DNA from: Candidatus Kuenenia stuttgartensis
Lineage (GTDB): Bacteria > Planctomycetota > Planctomycetia > Planctomycetales > Planctomycetaceae
Reading direction: 5' to 3'
DNA length: 64,000 bases
Assembly: GCA_945904015.1 (NCBI GenBank)
Contig: CAMDPK010000017.1
Coordinates: 1 to 64,000, forward strand
Shown here: positions 14,691 to 60,382 of the stretch, piece after piece
Layout: each line of letters begins with the position of its first letter
Position numbering within the stretch: position 1 is the first letter of the stretch
Translations under genes and position numbers: made by a program
Notes under the pieces: generated by a model
The model's input: the letters and a program-made list of their open reading frames with translations, nothing else
What the model was told of the DNA's origin: nothing
Database searches by the model: none

Positions 14691-15626
14691 ATGACACTCC
14701 TCTTCACCGACCCAATTTTTCTCGAACACGACACCGGCCAGCATCCGGAGAAACCGGAGCGGCTTCGCAGCATCACCGCCAAGCTGGCCGCACAAAAGCT
14801 CGATCAAGCCTGCGCGAAGGGGGAAATCGCCGTCGCATCGCGCGAGCAACTTCAGCGAGTCCACTCAGCCGGGCACATCGGCCGAGTCGAACGCTTCTGC
14901 AAAGACGGCGGCGGAAGGATCGAGGCCGACACCGTGTGCAGCCGACGTTCGTTCGAGGTCGCAGAACGAGCCGCCGGCACAGCCTGCGCGGCAGTCGATC
15001 AGGTTTTGAAAGCAGACGCGAAACATCGCCGAGCGTTGTGCCTGATCCGCCCTCCAGGACATCACGCGCTCGCGAACGATCCGATGGGTTTTTGCTTGTT
15101 CAACAACGTGGCGATCGCCGCGCGGCAGGCTCAGACGCACGGACTGCGGCGCGTGCTGATCGTCGATTGGGACGTGCATCACGGCAACGGCACACAGGAC
15201 ATCTTCTACGAGGACGGTGAGATCCACTTCTTCTCAGCACATCGCTCGCCGTTTTATCCCGGCACCGGCGATGCCGACGAAACCGGCAAAGGGAAAGGCT
15301 TGGGAGCGATCTTCAATCTGCCGGTGAAGTTCGGCACGGCACGACGCGAGTACCTCACTCGGTTCGAGACGATGTTGATCGACGCCGCGAAGCGCTGCCG
15401 GCCAGAATTGGTGCTGATCAGCGCGGGTTTCGATGCGCACGCTCAAGATCCGATCGGTTCGCTCGGCTTGGAGACCGAAGACTTCGCGACGCTCAGCAAG
15501 CTGGTGCTCGGCGTCGCGAAAGAGCATTGCGGCGGAAAAGTCGTGAGTCTGTTGGAAGGGGGCTACAACGTCACCGCGCTGGCCGACTGTGTCGCTCTGC
15601 ATTTGAGCGTGTTGAACGGCGAGTAG
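14691..15626 (+). CDS. Histone deacetylase-family hydrolase (acetoin utilisation/APAH-like)
   Basis: A 311-residue zinc hydrolase of the arginase/deacetylase fold. Motifs: RPPGHHA (the tandem catalytic histidines), [16 protein letters not shown] (zinc ligands Asp and His), [27 protein letters not shown] (second zinc Asp) and EGGYN with the active-site tyrosine region. Bacterial members deacetylate acetyl-lysine in proteins, acetylpolyamines or small amides; the substrate cannot be assigned from sequence. The start at 14691 lies 10 bp after a palindromic element, and another palindrome begins at the base right after the stop codon. Confidence 0.9.
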
Positions 15627-15734
15627 AACGTAGCCGTCACGCTCCGCGTGACGAGCCGAACACTTCCCAGCGCGTTGTTCAATCGGAGTCTCTTGAATCA
15701 CTCGGCTCGTCACGCGGAGCGTGACGGCTACGTT
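15627..15734. repeat. Palindromic element, perfect 33-bp arms
   Basis: Arms 15627-15659 and 15702-15734 are exact inverted copies with the core GTAGCCGTCACGCTCCGCGT and a 42-bp loop. It begins immediately after the HDAC-like stop codon and ends 5 bp before the convergent hsp20 stop, so it fills the intergenic space and may act as a two-way terminator. Confidence 0.93.
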
Positions 15735-15739
15735 CGCGG

Positions 15740-31697: not shown

Positions 31698-31773
31698 GCG
31701 AAACTCGAAATCCGAAACTCGAAATCCGCAGGCATCGCCTCGGTCTTCGAGTTTCGGATTTCGAGTTTCCCGC
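31698..31773. repeat. Heptad inverted repeat
   Basis: The left part, 31698-31728, reads in 7-bp steps AACTCGA, AATCCGA, AACTCGA, AATCCGC. The right part, 31745-31773, is its inverse (TCGAGTTTCGGATTTCGAGT). It lies in the kdsB-pyrG gap and ends just before the pyrG ribosome site. Confidence 0.88.
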
Positions 31774-34386: not shown

Positions 34387-34421
34387 TCGACTGGCCGACA
34401 CACGGTACTCAGTGCGCGGCG

Positions 34422-34506
34422 ATTTTTGATTTTTGATTTTTGATTTTCGATTGAGAAAGCGGACTGCGGTTCAATCGAAAATCAAAAATCTGCAATCGAA
34501 AATCCT
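34422..34506. repeat. Heptad inverted repeat, AT-rich
   Basis: The left part holds three TTTTTGA units then TTTTCGA and TTGAGAA. The right part, about 34472-34506, is the inverse (TCAATCGAAAATCAAAAATC). It is related to the array at 17460-17529 and lies in the truB-plsC gap; the following gene lacks an evident ribosome site. Confidence 0.88.
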
Positions 34507-35305: not shown

Positions 35306-35704
35306 CCTGAAGCGTGGCGAAGCCACACCTCAGTGCAAAGTGAAGAGTGAGAACTGCAAAGTGCAAAATGCCGGCGACACGCAAGCGGTCTGTTCGACAT
35401 TTTTCATTTTGCACTCCTCACTTTGCACTTTGCACCGCATCGGTCGGTCCTGCCGCTTGCCTGCTGCCAGAGACACCTTGACCCTTTCTCGCGACCGGAC
35501 GTACTGTCCCGCCCCATTCCTTCCGCTCGGCGATCTGGCCGAGCAATTTCCTGTCTGAATTTCCCACCGTTCCATTCCTTCCGATTGTTTCACCGTCAGC
35601 CGCATGCGTGCGCATCGTCGCGTCGTTCAGATGCTGCGCTGTCACGCACGCCTGCGGCTCGCGGTGAAACGAGTCACCTGCCCTGTCCTTTCGGGAGCAA
35701 CGTC
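35306..35704. other. 399-bp gap: heptad inverted repeat plus leader of the FlgI-like gene
   Basis: Positions 35331-35370 read TGCAAAG, TGAAGAG, TGAGAAC, TGCAAAG, TGCAAAA in 7-bp steps. Positions 35405-35434 are the inverted copy (CACTCCTCACTTTGCACTTT). The rest, 35440-35700, shows no gene; it should hold the promoter and ends with a GGGAG ribosome site at 35694. The same heptads recur at 60249-60382. Confidence 0.75.
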
Positions 35705-37802: not shown

Positions 37803-40800
37803 ATGCTCAAGTCGCTCGAAATGTTCGGCTTCAAGAGCTTCGCGGATCGCACGCGCTTCGACTTCTCGCGCGGGATCACCTGCGTCGTCGGGCCGAACGG
37901 ATCGGGCAAGAGCAACGTCGTCGACTCAATCAAGTGGGTGCTGGGCGATCAAAGCCCCAAGAGTCTCCGCGGCAAAGAGATGACCGACGTGATCTTCAAC
38001 GGCGCGTCGGGTCGCAAGCCGGCCGCGTTCGCGGAAGTGCTGCTGACGTTCGACAACTCATCGAAGTGCCTCACGCTGGACTCCGCCGAAGTGCAGATTG
38101 GCCGGCGCATCTGGCGCAACGGCGATTCGGAATATCTGATCAATCAACAGACCGCTCGGCTGAAGGACATCAAGGATCTATTCCTCGGCACGGGGGCTGG
38201 CTCGTCCGCGTACAGCATCATCGAGCAAGGCCGAGTCGATCAAATCCTGCAATCGAACGCCGCCGCGCGCCGCCACGTCTTCGAGGAAGCCGCAGGGGTG
38301 TCGCGTTACAAACTTCGCAAAGAAGAGGCGACTCGCAAGCTCGAACGTGTCGAGCAAAACCTGCTGCGGCTGCGCGACATCGTCGATGAGGTCGAATCGC
38401 AGCTCAATTCGATGCGCTCACAAGCCTCCAAAGCCAGCAAGTTCCGCGAGATCTCCGCCGAGTTGCGCGAGTGGTGGTTCGGCCTCGCCGCCGACGATCA
38501 TCGGCATTTCTCCGCGCAGTTGGCAACTGTCGAAGCGGAGCTGCACACCGGCGAATCCGAACTCGCCGAGCTGTCGTCACGGCAACAAGAACTCGAACAA
38601 AAGCTCTCGGTCTACGACGCCGAGATCTCCGAGGTCGATACGCGCCAGCGACACGCCGAACGGACTGCCGCTGGCAATCGCGAGAGCGTCGTCCGCCAGG
38701 AGGCGACACTGCGGCATCTCACCGCTCGCCAAAAAGAACTCGGCTCCGACTTGGACCGCCTGCGTCGGCAGCGAACCGTCATGCACGGCCGCTCCTGCGA
38801 GCTGACCGCCGAACTGCATCGCTCGGAAGAAGAGTTGTCGTCCGGCGATGCCGAGCACTTGCGGCTGCGAACTGCGATCTCCGACACAGAAAAACAACTG
38901 TCGGAACTCGCGTCGCAACTCAAAGCCAATCAATCGACACTCGACCGCGAGCGTCAAAAACAACTCGAACTGACGCAGCAGGCCAGCGCGACGCAGCAAC
39001 GTGTCAACAACTTGCACTCGCAACGAGACGCCGCGAACTCCGCTGCGATCTCCGCCAGTCAGCGATTGGATCAGTGCGTCTCCAGCACCGTTTCGGCACA
39101 GTCCGAGGTCTTGCGCCGGCAAGCGGCCGTCGATGCCGTGCTCAGCGAAGTCGCGTCGCTCGACAGCCGAGTCCGCGAAGTCCGCGACCGCCAACAGCAG
39201 CTCATCGCCGAGCAAGATCGTTTGCAGCAACAACTCCGCGAACAACGCGAAGACCGCAGCGCCCGGCAATCGCAACAAGCGGTCCTCGAAGACCTCGAAC
39301 GCCGGCAAGAGGGACTCGGCATCGGCGTGAAGGAAATCCTCAGTCGAGCACAATCCTCCGACTACGCTCCCTGGACCAGCATCCTCGGCAGCGTCGCCGA
39401 CCTGCTCGAAGCCGATCTCGACGAAGCCGCGATCCTCGAAGTCGCTCTCGGCGCGCGAGCCCAACTCATCGTCGTCCGGGAGATGGCCCCGGTTATCGAG
39501 TACCTCAACAGCGGAGCGAGTCGGTTGTCGGGCCGAGTGGGATTCGTCGAAGTGGGGAGTGGGGAGTGGGGAGTGGGGAGTGAAGACACTTCCAGCCCAC
39601 ACCAGATGTCCCTTTCCGTACTCCCCACTCCCCACTCCCCACTCCCCACCCTCCCCGGCGTCATCAAACGCGCCGACCAACTCGCAAGTCTCAAAACCGC
39701 GCTGCCCGGATTGGCCGAGGCGTTGCTCGGTACGACATGGGTCGTCGATACGCTCGACACCGCGCTGCGACTTGCCGCCGGCGAAGGTGAAGGCTGCCGC
39801 TTCGTCACACTGCAAGGTGAGCTGCTCGAAGATGACGGCACGTTGTTCGCCGGGACGGTTCGCAGCGAGTCCGCGCTGCTGACTCGACGCAGTGAACTGC
39901 GACGGTTGAAAAACGACCTGCTGCGTCTCGACCGCACGATTGCCGACGGTGAACGGCAACTGTCCGACGTTTCTCAATCGCTCAAAAACGTCGAACGCGT
40001 GATCGAGAGTGCCACGTCTGAGAAACAAGACCTCGCCGACCGACTCGCTCACGCGCGGTCGGACGTGCATGCCCAGCGGCAGGAGGTCGAACGTTTCTCC
40101 AAAGAGCGGGACGCGATCCTCGCCGAAGCCGCGCGATTCGAGTCGCTCGCCGCCGAACTGGCTCTGCAAATCGATCAAGCTCAGCGAGAACACGCCTGGT
40201 TCGACGACAACCTCGCCAGCCTGCGCGACTCATTCGCCGCACTCGAGGCCGACGTTTCTGGCCACGAGTCGCAACGGCAACTGCTGACGCAACAGCAAGT
40301 CGATCAGCGATTGGTCCTCGCCAAGCACGAAGAACGGCTGCAAGGCTTGCGATCGACGGTCGTCCGTTTGCAGGAGGAGCAGCGGCAGCGCGACGAACAA
40401 TTCGACGAAGCCGAACGCCGCCTGCAAGCCGCCGCCGCGCAGATGCGGCAACTCAACTTGCAGATGCTCAACACGAACGCCGAGCTGTGGGAACTGCAAC
40501 TGCTCGACGAGAAATTCGCCGCCGAGGTCACGTCGATCCTCGCTGACAAGGATCAACTGCGGACCCAAAAGTCCTCCTTCGCCGAGGAAGAAGCTCGTCT
40601 GCGAGCCGCTCGCCGCGAACTCGCCGACCGCCTGCACGCAAACGAAATCGCCGCTCGCGACGCTCGCCACCAATTGCAAGTCTGCGCAGAACGCATCGAA
40701 GAGGAATACCAAATGACGCTCGACGAAGTCGTCGCGTCGGGTGCGTCGGCGTTCGCGAAATGGCGGGAAGAAAGTGGGGAGTGGGGAGTGGAGAGTGGAG

Positions 40801-41633
40801 AGCAAAAGGAAGCAGCCTTCGGCACGGCATCGGAAGCTGGTGTAACATCAGAAGCGGATGTCGCGTCGCAGGATGTGGACTCGGTTTTCACTCAAACTTC
40901 CTCACTCTCCACTCCCCACTTCACCGAAGTTCGCCCGGAACTTGAAGAGCGAGTCAATCGCTTGCGTCGCAAGCTCAAGATGATGGGCAGTGTGAACACC
41001 GACAGCCTCAAAGACCTCGACGAACTGGATGGTCGCTACCAGCACCTCAGTTCGCAGTTGCAAGACCTCGAAGAGGCCAAGGCCACGCTCGAAGAAATCA
41101 TCCGCCAGATCAACGGTGAGAGTCAGCGGATGTTTCTGGAAACCTTCGAGGCGATCCGTGTGCAGTTCCAAAACTTGTTCCGCAAGATGTTCGGTGGCGG
41201 CGAGGGAGACATCATCCTCGAAGATCACAACGACGTCCTCGACTGCGGCATCGACGTGGTCGCGCGTCCCCCCGGCAAAGAACTGCGGAGCATCTCGCTG
41301 CTGAGCGGTGGCGAAAAGACGATGACCGCCGTCGCACTCTTGATGGCGATCTTCCGCAGCAAGCCCAGCCCGTTCTGCATCCTGGACGAAGTCGACGCCG
41401 CCCTGGATGAAGCCAACGTCGAGCGCTACAGCGGCGTCGTCCGCGAATTCAAGACCGCCACGCAGTTCATCATGATCACGCACAACAAACGCTCGATGCA
41501 GATCGGCGACATCCTCTACGGCGTGACGATGGAACAAAGCGGTGTCTCGAAACGCATGTCCGTTCGCTTCGAAGATGTCAGCGAGGACGGCAACTTCCGC
41601 ATGTCGCCGGCACCCGGCGCGAATGCGGCTTGA
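37803..41633 (+). CDS. smc: Chromosome segregation ATPase SMC with two in-frame repeat inserts
   Basis: SMC condenses and segregates DNA as an ATP-driven homodimer. The 1276-residue protein is about 90 residues longer than usual. Walker A is [20 protein letters not shown], the signature is [15 protein letters not shown] and Walker B is [16 protein letters not shown], so both ATPase halves are complete. Two inserts encoded by heptad repeats interrupt it: residues about 584-616 inside the hinge ([20 protein letters not shown]) and 991-1040 in the descending coiled coil ([14 protein letters not shown] onward). Both keep the frame. No scpA or scpB is nearby. Confidence 0.95.
39552..39649. repeat. 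Heptad inverted repeat inside smc (hinge)
   Basis: Arms 39552-39581 and 39620-39649 are perfect 30-bp inverted copies made of GTGGGGA heptads, with a 38-bp loop. The plus strand carries four GGGG runs separated by AGT (39554-39578), a G-quadruplex motif. The element is read through in frame by smc. Confidence 0.95.
40773..40920. repeat. Second heptad repeat inside smc (coiled coil)
   Basis: The left part, 40773-40802, is AGTGGGGAGTGGGGAGTGGA then GAGTGGAGAG. The right part, 40905-40920, is the inverse CTCTCCACTCCCCACT. The 102-bp loop codes for a Ser/Thr/Ala-rich stretch without heptad coiled-coil pattern. It is related to the array at 39552. Confidence 0.88.
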
Positions 41634-41656
41634 GCGAGGTATGTCAGCGACTTTTG

Positions 41657-41753
41657 CTCCCTCTCCCTTTGGGAGAGGGCCGGGGTGAGGGAGCCAATCG
41701 TTCTTGAATCCCTCATCCGGCCTTCGGCCACCTTCTCCCAAGGGGAGAAGGAC
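41657..41753. repeat. Compound palindromic element between smc and the gntR gene
   Basis: Two modules, 41657-41693 (CTCCCTCTCCCTTTGGGAGA) and 41710-41753 (CCCTCATCCGGCCTTCGGCC), correspond to the element at 9610-9724 in reverse orientation. It lies 24 bp after the smc stop and could end the smc transcript. Confidence 0.85.
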
Positions 41754-41793
41754 GGGTTCGTCGTCGATCCCCGCACGAAATCAAAACGACCGC

Positions 41794-48926: not shown

Positions 48927-49301
48927 GGTTCCCTCACTCCTTGAAGGCCGATTCTTGGAACAAATTCCGTGGCGAGAAGAATCGCCGAACGCTCTCCGTT
49001 GGCCTCCGCGAGTTTCATCCGTCAGCCGCGACAATCGACCGCTCTGCCGCCGCCACGACGAAACTCCAGCCTGAACAGGCCGGGGATTCTAGGGGGTTTC
49101 ATCGGAGCAACAAGAGACCATCAAGGGGTCGGGAGTCTTTTTCTGTTTGGGCAAATGGCGCTCGGAAATCATCTGGAGAATTGAGCGATCGGTAGGGTGG
49201 GACCAGCGCAGCGCCGGCCCATCAAAACTTTGTGAATTGGTGGGCCGGCGCTGCGCTGGTCCCACCCTACGATTTGAAAAATGGCAGCCGCTCTCTCGCG
49301 C
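48927..49301. other. 375-bp gap with a palindromic element; hppA leader
   Basis: No gene is visible. Next to hppA lies the leader with the ribosome site. At 49192-49221 and 49241-49270 there is a perfect 30-bp inverted repeat (GTAGGGTGGGACCAGCGCAG and on), listed separately. A promoter for the minus-strand hppA is expected around 48950-49050 but no confident -35/-10 pair was found. Confidence 0.6.
49192..49270. repeat. Palindromic element, perfect 30-bp arms
   Basis: Arms 49192-49221 and 49241-49270 are exact inverted copies, with a 19-bp loop. The core is GACCAGCGCAGCGCCGGCCC. It lies between hppA and the following minus-strand gene. Confidence 0.94.
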
Positions 49302-51317
49302 TCACGCCTTGCGGATGAAGTGCGCCGCGTAGCTGCGGACTTGTTTGCCGTTGAGCACATGCACGATTCGGAGTTGCTGAATCGTCTCCTGGCTGAAGCG
49401 GCCGAGCGGGACGTGGATCAGTTTCTTGCCGTGCTTCTTGGCGAGCCGTCGCCAGCCGGGACCGGGGGGCGATTCGCTGAGCACAGCAATGTGCCGGCAT
49501 TCGCTGTGGACACAGGCGGCGGCGAGCAGTCGCTCTTCCATCGTATCGGTGAAGTCGAATTGCGGGTTGCTCCAAACTTCTGGGATCGGACGGGGTGGGA
49601 ATAGGAACATCGCGCCGCCGTAGCTGGCGGCTCCAATGCCGGGACCGACCATCTCGCGGCCGAAGTCGGTCGCGAACAACGCCAGCGTCGATTCGTCGTG
49701 ATGCTCGGCCATCCAAGTGATTCGCCACGGATAGTCGCGCGGGTCGGCCGGCGAATCGAAAAACATCAGCACGCAATCGAGCGTCCCGCGCGTCGGCGGG
49801 CAGACCTTCACGTACAACTCGCCGGTGTGCCAGTTCCGCAGCGTTTCGCGAATGTCGAGTCCGTCCTTCAGACTCGTCGAAAACTTTTCGGTGCGCACGA
49901 GGTCCGCACCCAGCATTGCCAATGCGGCCTCTTTGACGTGCGTGCGAAATTTTTCGATGGCGACATCCTCTTCCGGCCACGAGCACTGATGAAACGGATT
50001 CCAGCGCTGCCGCCATTGATCCTGATCGATCTTCGGAGCCTTCGGCTTGAGTTCCAGCGACCGCCAGACAATCGCCTGTCCCGGCAAGCGACTCTTCATG
50101 CGCACGACATCGCCATCCGGAAGCTGCGCGACGCCGTTGGTCATCCGTAGTTGCTGCTCCTGGCGAGCGGAGGGTGTCAACCCTCCGAGTTGTGTCGAGT
50201 CATTGACTTGGGAATCGCCCGGCCCTTGGTTGCTCGGAGGGTTGACACCCTCCGCTCGCCAATCAATTTGGTTGTATTCGTACTCTCGCGCCACCTCGGC
50301 CAGCGTGATTGCGAACTGGTCGCCGGCGATTTGCTTGGCGGCAAGGATCAGCGAATACAAATCGGGCGTCATGCGACGTTCGATCAGGCACAGGTTGCGG
50401 ACGTAATGCAGAAACGTTCGCAGCGTCTTGGGAGTGATCTTGCGCGCTCGCGATTTCAGCTCGTGGCGATAACGGTCGCGAGTCGCCAGCAGCAGCGCTT
50501 TCACCCCGTCGATCGACAAGTTCTCGTCGTCGTCCAGCGACTGCCGAGCTTGCTCGTACAAGCCGGTGATGAACGGCAGCTCGCCGAGCCAAAAGAGATG
50601 CGTGAGCGGATCGTTGACGTAGGTCTCCGTTGACTCCACGTCGTCGTTCTCGGCGAGATCCTCACGTCGGTCGTGATAGGCGTCTTTGACCCACGGCCAG
50701 TCCATCATCGAACAGACGAAGAGAATCCGCTCATGTCGCCGCTCGAGTTCGCGCAGCCGATTCGCCATCCAGACGACACGCGCCTCCGGCTGTCCTTCGG
50801 GGATGCGCGGCACGGTCGGCATCAACGCCGCCGCGAAACGGTCGATCGACACCTGCTTGACCGGATACGGATCGGGATAAAACGCCGCGAGGCTGACGAA
50901 GTTGGCTGTTTCGACATCGATGAACGCTCGCGGCATCCGTTCTTGCAGAGCGATCCGCAGCGCGGCGATCACCGGCTGACAGGGATCAATCGGCACATAA
51001 CTGCACGATTTCAATTCGTCCTGGCCGTCCGACCGCGATGCGAACGCATCTGCCGCCAACTCGTCTTCGCTTTCGCTTCCATCCGGTTGCCAACTCTCGA
51101 ACGACAATGGCTCGGGCTGCACGACCAGCGACAAGCTCGGCAGCTCGGCGACCGCCTCCTCGACTTGCTCCTGAAACGATGGAGGCAGCGGCACCGCCAG
51201 ACAATCAAACTCCTGAGCCAGCATCACGCGGCGGACTTCAATGGCGAAATCCCCGCTGCCGTGGATCACCGGCAACACCCAAATGCGGTCACTGAGTTGC
51301 AAGAAGTTCGAGAGCAT
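49302..51317 (-). CDS. Large protein of unknown function with in-frame palindromic insert
   Basis: A 671-residue soluble protein from ATG 51317 (MLSNFLQLSDRIWVLPVIHG). The N-terminal part, with VIHGSGDFAIEVRRVML then FDCLAVPLPPSFQEQV, faintly recalls TraB/EreA-like folds, but I cannot assign a family. ERHERILFVCSMMDWPWVKD near residue 200 and the C-terminal half (GWRRLAKKHGKKLIHVPLG at the end) look well conserved in style, with no signal peptide. Residues about 353-386 are encoded by a complete 99-bp palindromic element (50162-50260) and form a Gly/Pro/Asn-rich stretch. It is divergent from the small gene at 51339 with a 21-bp gap. Confidence 0.7.
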   Translation of the reverse strand: MLSNFLQLSDRIWVLPVIHGSGDFAIEVRRVMLAQEFDCLAVPLPPSFQEQVEEAVAELPSLSLVVQPEPLSFESWQPDGSESEDELAADAFASRSDGQDELKSCSYVPIDPCQPVIAALRIALQERMPRAFIDVETANFVSLAAFYPDPYPVKQVSIDRFAAALMPTVPRIPEGQPEARVVWMANRLRELERRHERILFVCSMMDWPWVKDAYHDRREDLAENDDVESTETYVNDPLTHLFWLGELPFITGLYEQARQSLDDDENLSIDGVKALLLATRDRYRHELKSRARKITPKTLRTFLHYVRNLCLIERRMTPDLYSLILAAKQIAGDQFAITLAEVAREYEYNQIDWRAEGVNPPSNQGPGDSQVNDSTQLGGLTPSARQEQQLRMTNGVAQLPDGDVVRMKSRLPGQAIVWRSLELKPKAPKIDQDQWRQRWNPFHQCSWPEEDVAIEKFRTHVKEAALAMLGADLVRTEKFSTSLKDGLDIRETLRNWHTGELYVKVCPPTRGTLDCVLMFFDSPADPRDYPWRITWMAEHHDESTLALFATDFGREMVGPGIGAASYGGAMFLFPPRPIPEVWSNPQFDFTDTMEERLLAAACVHSECRHIAVLSESPPGPGWRRLAKKHGKKLIHVPLGRFSQETIQQLRIVHVLNGKQVRSYAAHFIRKA
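50162..50260. repeat. Palindromic element inside a coding region, perfect 28-bp arms
   Basis: Arms 50162-50189 and 50233-50260 are exact inverted copies of the family at 3788 and 18156; the loop is 43 bp. Total length 99 bp equals 33 codons, and the host gene reads straight through. Confidence 0.96.
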
Positions 51318-60026: not shown

Positions 60027-60248
60027 ATGAAGGGCAAAGGGGCAGAAGTTCACGCGTGGTCGGTCAGCTTTCTGGCAGGGTCAGACAGCCCAAGTCACTC
60101 GACTCGCAAAGAGTGCGTCTTTCTGACCGACGGAGTCGATCTGGGGCAGCTCCAAAACGAAGTCGAACTGCGCTACAGCGTCGGCGGCCGAAACGTGGAC
60201 ATCCTGGAGATCAAAGCGCTTGGGGCGATCGGGAACTGCAAGACCTGA
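60027..60248 (+). CDS. Small hypothetical protein
   Basis: A 73-residue protein from ATG 60027, rich in alternating strands (KECVFLTDGVDLGQLQNEVE, LRYSVGGRNVDILEIKALG). No signal peptide or membrane segment. It lies downstream of the CheA gene and upstream of a heptad repeat. The ribosome site is poor. The sequence looks protein-like rather than random, but I do not recognise a family. Confidence 0.5.
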   Translation: MKGKGAEVHAWSVSFLAGSDSPSHSTRKECVFLTDGVDLGQLQNEVELRYSVGGRNVDILEIKALGAIGNCKT

Positions 60249-60382
60249 GTGCAAAGTGAAGAGTGCAGACTGCAAAGTGCAAATTGACCGGAAGCGATTG
60301 GTGGATTCGCGTCGGCCGCACTTCGCTGTTGGTTCTGGCCGGCATTTTACACTTTGCAGTCTGCACTCTTCACTTTGCACTG
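60249..60382. repeat. Heptad inverted repeat (family with 35331)
   Basis: The left part, about 60249-60286, reads TGCAAAG, TGAAGAG, TGCAGAC, TGCAAAG, TGCAAAT. The right part, about 60347-60381, is the inverse (TTTGCAGTCTGCACTCTTCA). It lies 95 bp before dcd. Confidence 0.88.

Follow-up and report, generated by a model that had tools for sequence, protein, structure and literature searches.

The window (the whole 64-kb stretch of DNA that was analyzed) carries on its forward strand an smc gene at positions 37803–41633, an open reading frame of 1276 amino acids in which Pfam recognizes an SMC_N domain over residues 1–1249 (E = 1.6e-68) and an SMC_hinge domain over residues 527–658 (PF06470, E = 1.7e-9; positions 39381–39776, same strand). 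Inside the hinge-coding part lies a palindrome built of heptads, which we call site I. Its left arm (39552–39581) consists of four GTGGGGA units followed by GT, its right arm (39620–39649) is the exact reverse complement of the left, and each arm is translated on the smc strand as 10 residues. The 2 arms, of 30 nt each, are 100% complementary and stand 38 nt apart, separated by a spacer at 39582–39619. The earlier note on this DNA had described a perfect 98-bp palindrome; the arms are perfect but the spacer is not, so the 98 bp do not form one perfect palindrome. That 2 exact 30-bp arms of GTGGGGA heptads are translated in frame within the smc hinge was confirmed, and the note's view that the gene apparently works is supported. 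Allowing up to 2 mismatches, the 15-mer AGTGGGGAGTGGGGA occurs 13 times in the 64-kb window, against 0.05 expected; all 13 lie in smc, which also holds 10 of the 48 copies of GTGGRGAGTGGRGA in the genome of the window (G000). In 464 kb of real sequence, 112 inverted repeats scored at least 16, versus 0 after one block shuffle. As RNA, the left arm alone is predicted to form a G4 at −30.6 kcal/mol, while the whole insert is predicted to prefer a hairpin, at −73.4 kcal/mol.

A second heptad palindrome with the GTGGGGA unit, absent from the earlier note, occupies positions 40774–40920 of smc, in the C-terminal half of the protein at about residues 991–1040 (site II). Its left arm (40774–40801, core 40780–40797) has four GTGGGGA/GTGGAGA heptads, and its right arm lies at 40899–40920 (core 40903–40920), both on the forward strand. 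Directly past the smc stop codon, at 41651–41755, there is a repeat of the CTCCCTCTCCCTTTGGGAGAGGG type, similar ones being present at L263 6129 and at L149 9377.

The site I insert corresponds to about residues 584–616 (33 residues) and thus lies within the hinge domain. We modeled SMC residues 501–740 as a single chain with AlphaFold2, using 38 homologues, and obtained a confident hinge fold (mean pLDDT 84.7), which Foldseek matched best to SMC hinges, with 5h69 and 1gxl first. The insert (residues 84–116 of the segment) is predicted, at low confidence, to be a loop between 2 hinge strands (segment residues 81–83 and 120–123). The pLDDT stays below 50 at segment residues 90–109, that is, at 20 of the 33 insert residues, which suggests that the insert may be disordered. 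Because the alignment has a variable-length stretch at this position also in distant bacteria and strands flank the insert in the model, the insert seems to lengthen a natural loop.

Sites I and II of smc across the genus

In all 12 genomes of the genus, every one of them a draft, smc was matched without inner stop codons (in G002 and G008 only up to a contig end), and in all 12 genes the stretch between GRVGF and GVI.RADQL is variable, with 57 to 186 nt. We scanned 33 smc genes (these 12 and 21 from outside the genus) for inverted repeats with a score of at least 14. Within the genus, palindromes were scored at site I in 8 of the 12 genomes, at site II in 3 and nowhere else, so that 11 of 11 fell on 2 sites, although the genomes are related and the 11 are therefore not independent. 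None of the 21 outside genes had a palindrome at either site as placed by motif (site I was unplaceable in 2 of them and site II in 1), and two had one elsewhere.

The sequences at site I, sorted into classes by eye, differ widely among relatives. GTGGGGA heptads occur in G000 and, with an altered right arm, in G011; G005 has GTGGCGA/GTGGAGA heptads, G009 has GTRGGCA, and G006 has GGGGCGA, as does G007, whose palindrome scores below the threshold. The inserts of three sister smc genes are REP-like: GGCGAGCGGGGCGGCGTCAGCCCCCCGG in G004, ...GTTAGCCCCCGG in G001, which resembles the G004 insert, and AACCCGACGCGTCAGCGAGGGCG in L052, the record from G008. The stretches in G002, G003, and G010 seem to be one-armed. 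The case that the earlier note had named as speaking against its reading, relatives with the same residues and no palindrome, is found by half: G011 keeps most residues of the left arm, and in its decayed palindrome 28 of the 32 pairs remain.

In the SMC protein tree, one clade unites G001 with G008 and a second (support 90/90) the remaining ten genomes. The latter splits into 2 groups with heptads in both, and the heptads of site I may therefore date from the common ancestor of these ten genomes and have been replaced in G004. We compared the arms found by the palindrome scan in five species of one group (G003, being one-armed, was excluded). Site I arms were 84–100% alike within a species (mean 91%), against 68–97% between species for the left arm (mean 79%) and 55–93% for the right (mean 71%), a comparison that is biased by the picking of elements for complementary arms and in which the 2 ranges overlap, the left arms of G000 and G011 being 97% alike. 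The spacer motif GTGAAG was at first taken to prove that the site I elements descend from one another's ancestor, a reading that was dropped, since the motif could be a heptad variant; by eye, a longer agreement looks homologous only for G006 and G007.

Heptad palindromes in the rest of the genome

Outside smc, G000 has 13 places with GTGGRGA, in 12 stretches, and all of them lie within long open frames. Judged by eye, nine are clear pairs, those in L123, L126, and L130 have one full arm, and that in L132 is cut by a contig end. A Pfam domain was found in the open frame of 10 of the 12 stretches, and L130 and L131 had no Pfam match. The domains are asparagine synthase, proton antiporter M, UvrA, class-II tRNA synthetase, PSD1, squalene-hopene cyclase, hydantoinase, Lhr, polysaccharide deacetylase (barely above the cut-off), and, in a MetH-like frame, homocysteine methyltransferase with pterin- and B12-binding domains. 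The insert is not specific to SMC, since UvrA, Lhr, hopene cyclase, the MetH-like protein, and others contain the same heptads in frame. Within the genus, the hopene cyclase and Lhr orthologues carry, as judged from the peptides, other palindrome-like peptides at equal positions, and some orthologues have no insert, for example hopene cyclase near residue 369 in G005, G009, and G011. The UvrA-like frame (L125 1–4863, forward strand, 1621 amino acids) contains at least 2 heptad palindromes (L224 15136 and 16608) and further repeat-like in-frame peptides, and the Lhr helicase frame (L128 874–5766, forward strand, 1631 amino acids) contains, by eye, several palindrome-like inserts of differing kinds.

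We then surveyed 2.064 Mb of G000 for palindromes with a score of at least 16, using our own codon-model gene finder (86% coding). The survey returned 524 palindromes, of which 368 are intergenic, 109 genic, and 47 at gene edges; 90 of the 1432 predicted genes hold at least one, and palindromes of all types reach 1.3 per intergenic kb. The sole control genome, G012 from another genus of the same family, had 13 palindromes in 0.4 Mb, none of them genic. Most of the G000 palindromes are REP-like. Arms with a period of 7 were found in 44 palindromes (26 intergenic, 11 genic, 7 at edges), compared with 0–4 for each of the periods 3–6 and 8–13; period 14, a harmonic, gave 47. The 5′ arm has more G than C in 43 of the 44 heptad palindromes, and in the other 480 the corresponding split is 239 versus 166 with 75 ties. 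This constant polarity argues against random inversion. Divergence is 7.5% between the 2 arms and 17.7% between neighboring units, the arms being closer in 36 of the 44, a difference biased by the picking of elements for their complementary arms. Units differ from locus to locus, and genic arms are richer in G+C (0.63 versus 0.42). About half of all heptads are free of stops on both strands. Whichever of the three frames is used, a tandem array of a stop-free heptad encodes one and the same cyclic peptide, and we considered whether stop-free units are sorted into genes; the idea was rejected, as the stop density did not differ significantly between genic and intergenic heptads (p = 0.15).

Four intergenic examples lie in the window itself, at 31700–31769 (period-7 arms, GAAACTCGAAATCC...), 34421–34504 (GATTTTT units), 35333–35435 (GTGCAAA units), and 60248–60381 (AGTGCAA unit). 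The last starts on the third base of the TGA stop that closes a predicted gene at 60027–60248. Its flanks are kept in nine relatives and were not found in G007 or G010, and most of the relatives that keep them have other heptad units. By eye, these are ATTGCAA in L290, ATTGAAA in L292, AATGGAA in L294, ATTGGTC in L293 and L298, and GATTGGA in L295 and L296; in L291 there is a decayed version of the G000 arms around a related spacer, and L297 has almost nothing at the site. GATTGGA is present in 14 copies in L295 (from G011) versus 3 in L296 (from G009), which could be an assembly effect. The flanks of these 2 records agree in 1302 of 1302 letters before the site and in 2070 of 2075 after it. 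Because the smc genes of G011 and G009 differ, this near-identity over 3.4 kb may reflect recent transfer or a binning error; otherwise the site may be a variable heptad locus. The spacers look, by eye, common to the site (G000 with L291, L290 with L292) while the arms differ, and thus spacers seem to go with the site while arms change.

Likeness to known repeats

The STRR repeats of cyanobacteria are tandem heptanucleotides. In Xanthomonas, Rehm et al. (2015, PMC4692102) describe GGGAATC heptads, a G-rich, G4-capable 7-nt unit with a preference for four copies, of which 2 convergent inverted arrays occur in 70 and 75 cases; the GGGGA(C/T)T repeats of Nostoc are treated alongside. The palindromes described here share this arrangement of tandem G-rich 7-nt units in 2 convergent inverted arrays. 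They differ in that many units are present, whereas one unit type was studied there; in that long open frames contain every one of the 13 GTGGRGA places outside smc, whereas 89–93% of the heptads are intergenic in the 2 Xanthomonas; and in that different units occupy one site in different species.

The earlier note was also reminded of the Rickettsia palindromic elements (RPEs), and the likeness of an in-frame translated palindrome, here in Planctomycetota, is supported. According to a review (PMC10969869), RPEs are palindromes with a length of about 150 bp that fall into ten families, every family having its own conserved peptide; they are read in frame inside unrelated conserved genes, and the review terms their frequency in Rickettsia unusual. 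In our genome, too, in-frame palindromes lie inside conserved protein genes, twice in smc and also in other frames with Pfam domains. As far as that text goes, they are unlike RPEs in forming no dispersed family with a length near 150 bp and a conserved sequence or peptide, since the site I element has 98 bp, elements share heptad arms but not spacers, and units vary by locus.

Intragenic REPs of several species, many of them in DNA repair genes, are reported in the text of Di Nocera et al. (2013, PMC3733652), which counts Planctomycetes among the REP hosts and describes how 2 Xanthomonas carry different REPs at roughly one position of recB; the words SMC, condens, and hinge are absent from that text. 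The elements studied here resemble those REPs in lying inside genes and in the occurrence of unlike palindromes at a common site, and they differ from REPs or REPINs with a RAYT, as far as these are described there, in their heptad arms and in their absence beside the 23 Y1 genes examined. Among the literature matches listed, with subscription papers mostly out of reach, none described heptad palindromes within proteins of planctomycetes.

Probable origin and tolerance of the heptad palindromes

The reading that we prefer, to which we give a probability of about 70%, is that the smc palindrome is one of many palindromic repeats of this genome, with heptad arrays that are repeatedly rewritten and are tolerated in a permissive loop of the SMC hinge. 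The palindrome would then be a pair of convergent G-rich 7-nt arrays facing each other across a short spacer in what is probably a permissive surface loop. Site I would be old, as its sisters hold a palindrome, a decayed one, or an apparent one-armed remnant, and its sequence would be young, with arms that were repeatedly rewritten, both in step. Slippage may add and remove heptads, which would account for the changes in unit number, and one arm may be copied from the other, probably via a hairpin or a template switch in replication, which would account for arms that match each other better than neighboring units do; replacement of whole elements would look similar to arm copying. Such correction is not constant, given the decayed palindromes of G011 and G007 and the apparent single arms of G002, G003, and G010. 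In some species a REP-like palindrome would have taken the place of the heptads. Selection would retain only versions with an open frame, and the peptide is most likely a tolerated, disordered spacer whose changes are probably neutral. The 2 spots in smc thus look like old homes of fast-changing repeats and not like a single odd insertion. More tentatively, heptad palindromes might be written and not inserted at all, by a directional process with a fixed 7-nt step and G-first polarity that extends a short resident sequence on both sides with the same heptads and keeps rewriting the arms in step, in genes and between them. If so, a protein loop would acquire new, still readable peptides in every species. 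Comparison of four loci (smc, hopene cyclase, Lhr, and one intergenic site) showed that palindromes or palindrome-like peptides at shared sites are unlike one another in sister species, a natural experiment on the origin of hairpin repeats, the reason for the 7-nt unit, and the protein loops that tolerate foreign peptides.

Mobility of the heptad palindrome as a MITE-like unit that independently hits tolerant loops is somewhat less probable still. Similar arms do recur at many loci, window 60248 and L263 12734, for example, having a left arm of 36 nt in common without a difference, and the loops are tolerant. However, similarity in the arms does not extend to the spacers (of 81 pairs, 1 beat all 50 shuffles), the 60248 site appears by eye to keep its own spacers, and edge duplications of at least 3 nt, scored as exact repeats touching the scored arm ends, were found in 1 of 44 heptad palindromes against 2 in the control, unlike the target-site duplication of a MITE. 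It is very improbable that the insert owes its presence to selection for a function in the hinge. The earlier note had expected that an insert there should matter, and a variable insert is indeed present throughout the genus; its hypervariability in length and sequence, the low-confidence loop predicted for most of it, and the same heptad peptides in unrelated proteins all speak against this. An assembly artefact at site I is least credible of all: perfect arms are difficult for short reads, and the G000 assembly is a draft (7.43 Mb in 286 contigs, 91.7% complete), but several assemblies that were deposited separately carry related inserts, free of inner stops, at these codons.

The heptad palindrome could also be a REPIN moved by a RAYT (a Y1 transposase), like the REP-like smc inserts of the sisters, which we consider improbable. 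RAYT-type genes are available, with 91 Y1 matches in total, 8 of them in G000 and at least one in 11 of the 12 genomes of the genus, and the first 29 nt of the L052 insert arm match repeats beside a Y1_Tnp gene of G000 (L235) at up to 27 of 29 positions. From these sequence matches, the REP-like inserts themselves were likely moved by RAYT. However, none of the 23 of 91 Y1 matches examined, which include all 8 of G000, has heptads beside it. A palindrome lies near 3 of 3 in a first set and 13 of 20 in a second, the other 7 having none within 900 nt, and none of these palindromes is heptadic, with period-7 scores of at most 0.45, taken from one arm in the second set. As a mover of heptads, RAYT was therefore set aside. 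The GTAG-type tetranucleotide is absent from the foot of the site I hairpin, where the arm begins with GTGGGGA; GTAG occurs within the first 8 nt of 107 of the 480 non-heptad palindromes.

REP-like palindromes are very dense in the window (15626–15735, 49192–49270, 2039–2155, and 50161–50261) and in G000 as a whole, with GTAG..., CGTGGGGCAGGTTT..., GGCGAGCCGGAGGGCGTCAGCCCCCGG, and AACCCGAAGCGTCAGCGAGGG types. At L263 2845–3850, 2 palindromes beginning with GTAGCCCTGTCGCTCCGCGACAGGAAAGCCGA bracket a Y1_Tnp region in a RAYT/REP-like arrangement.
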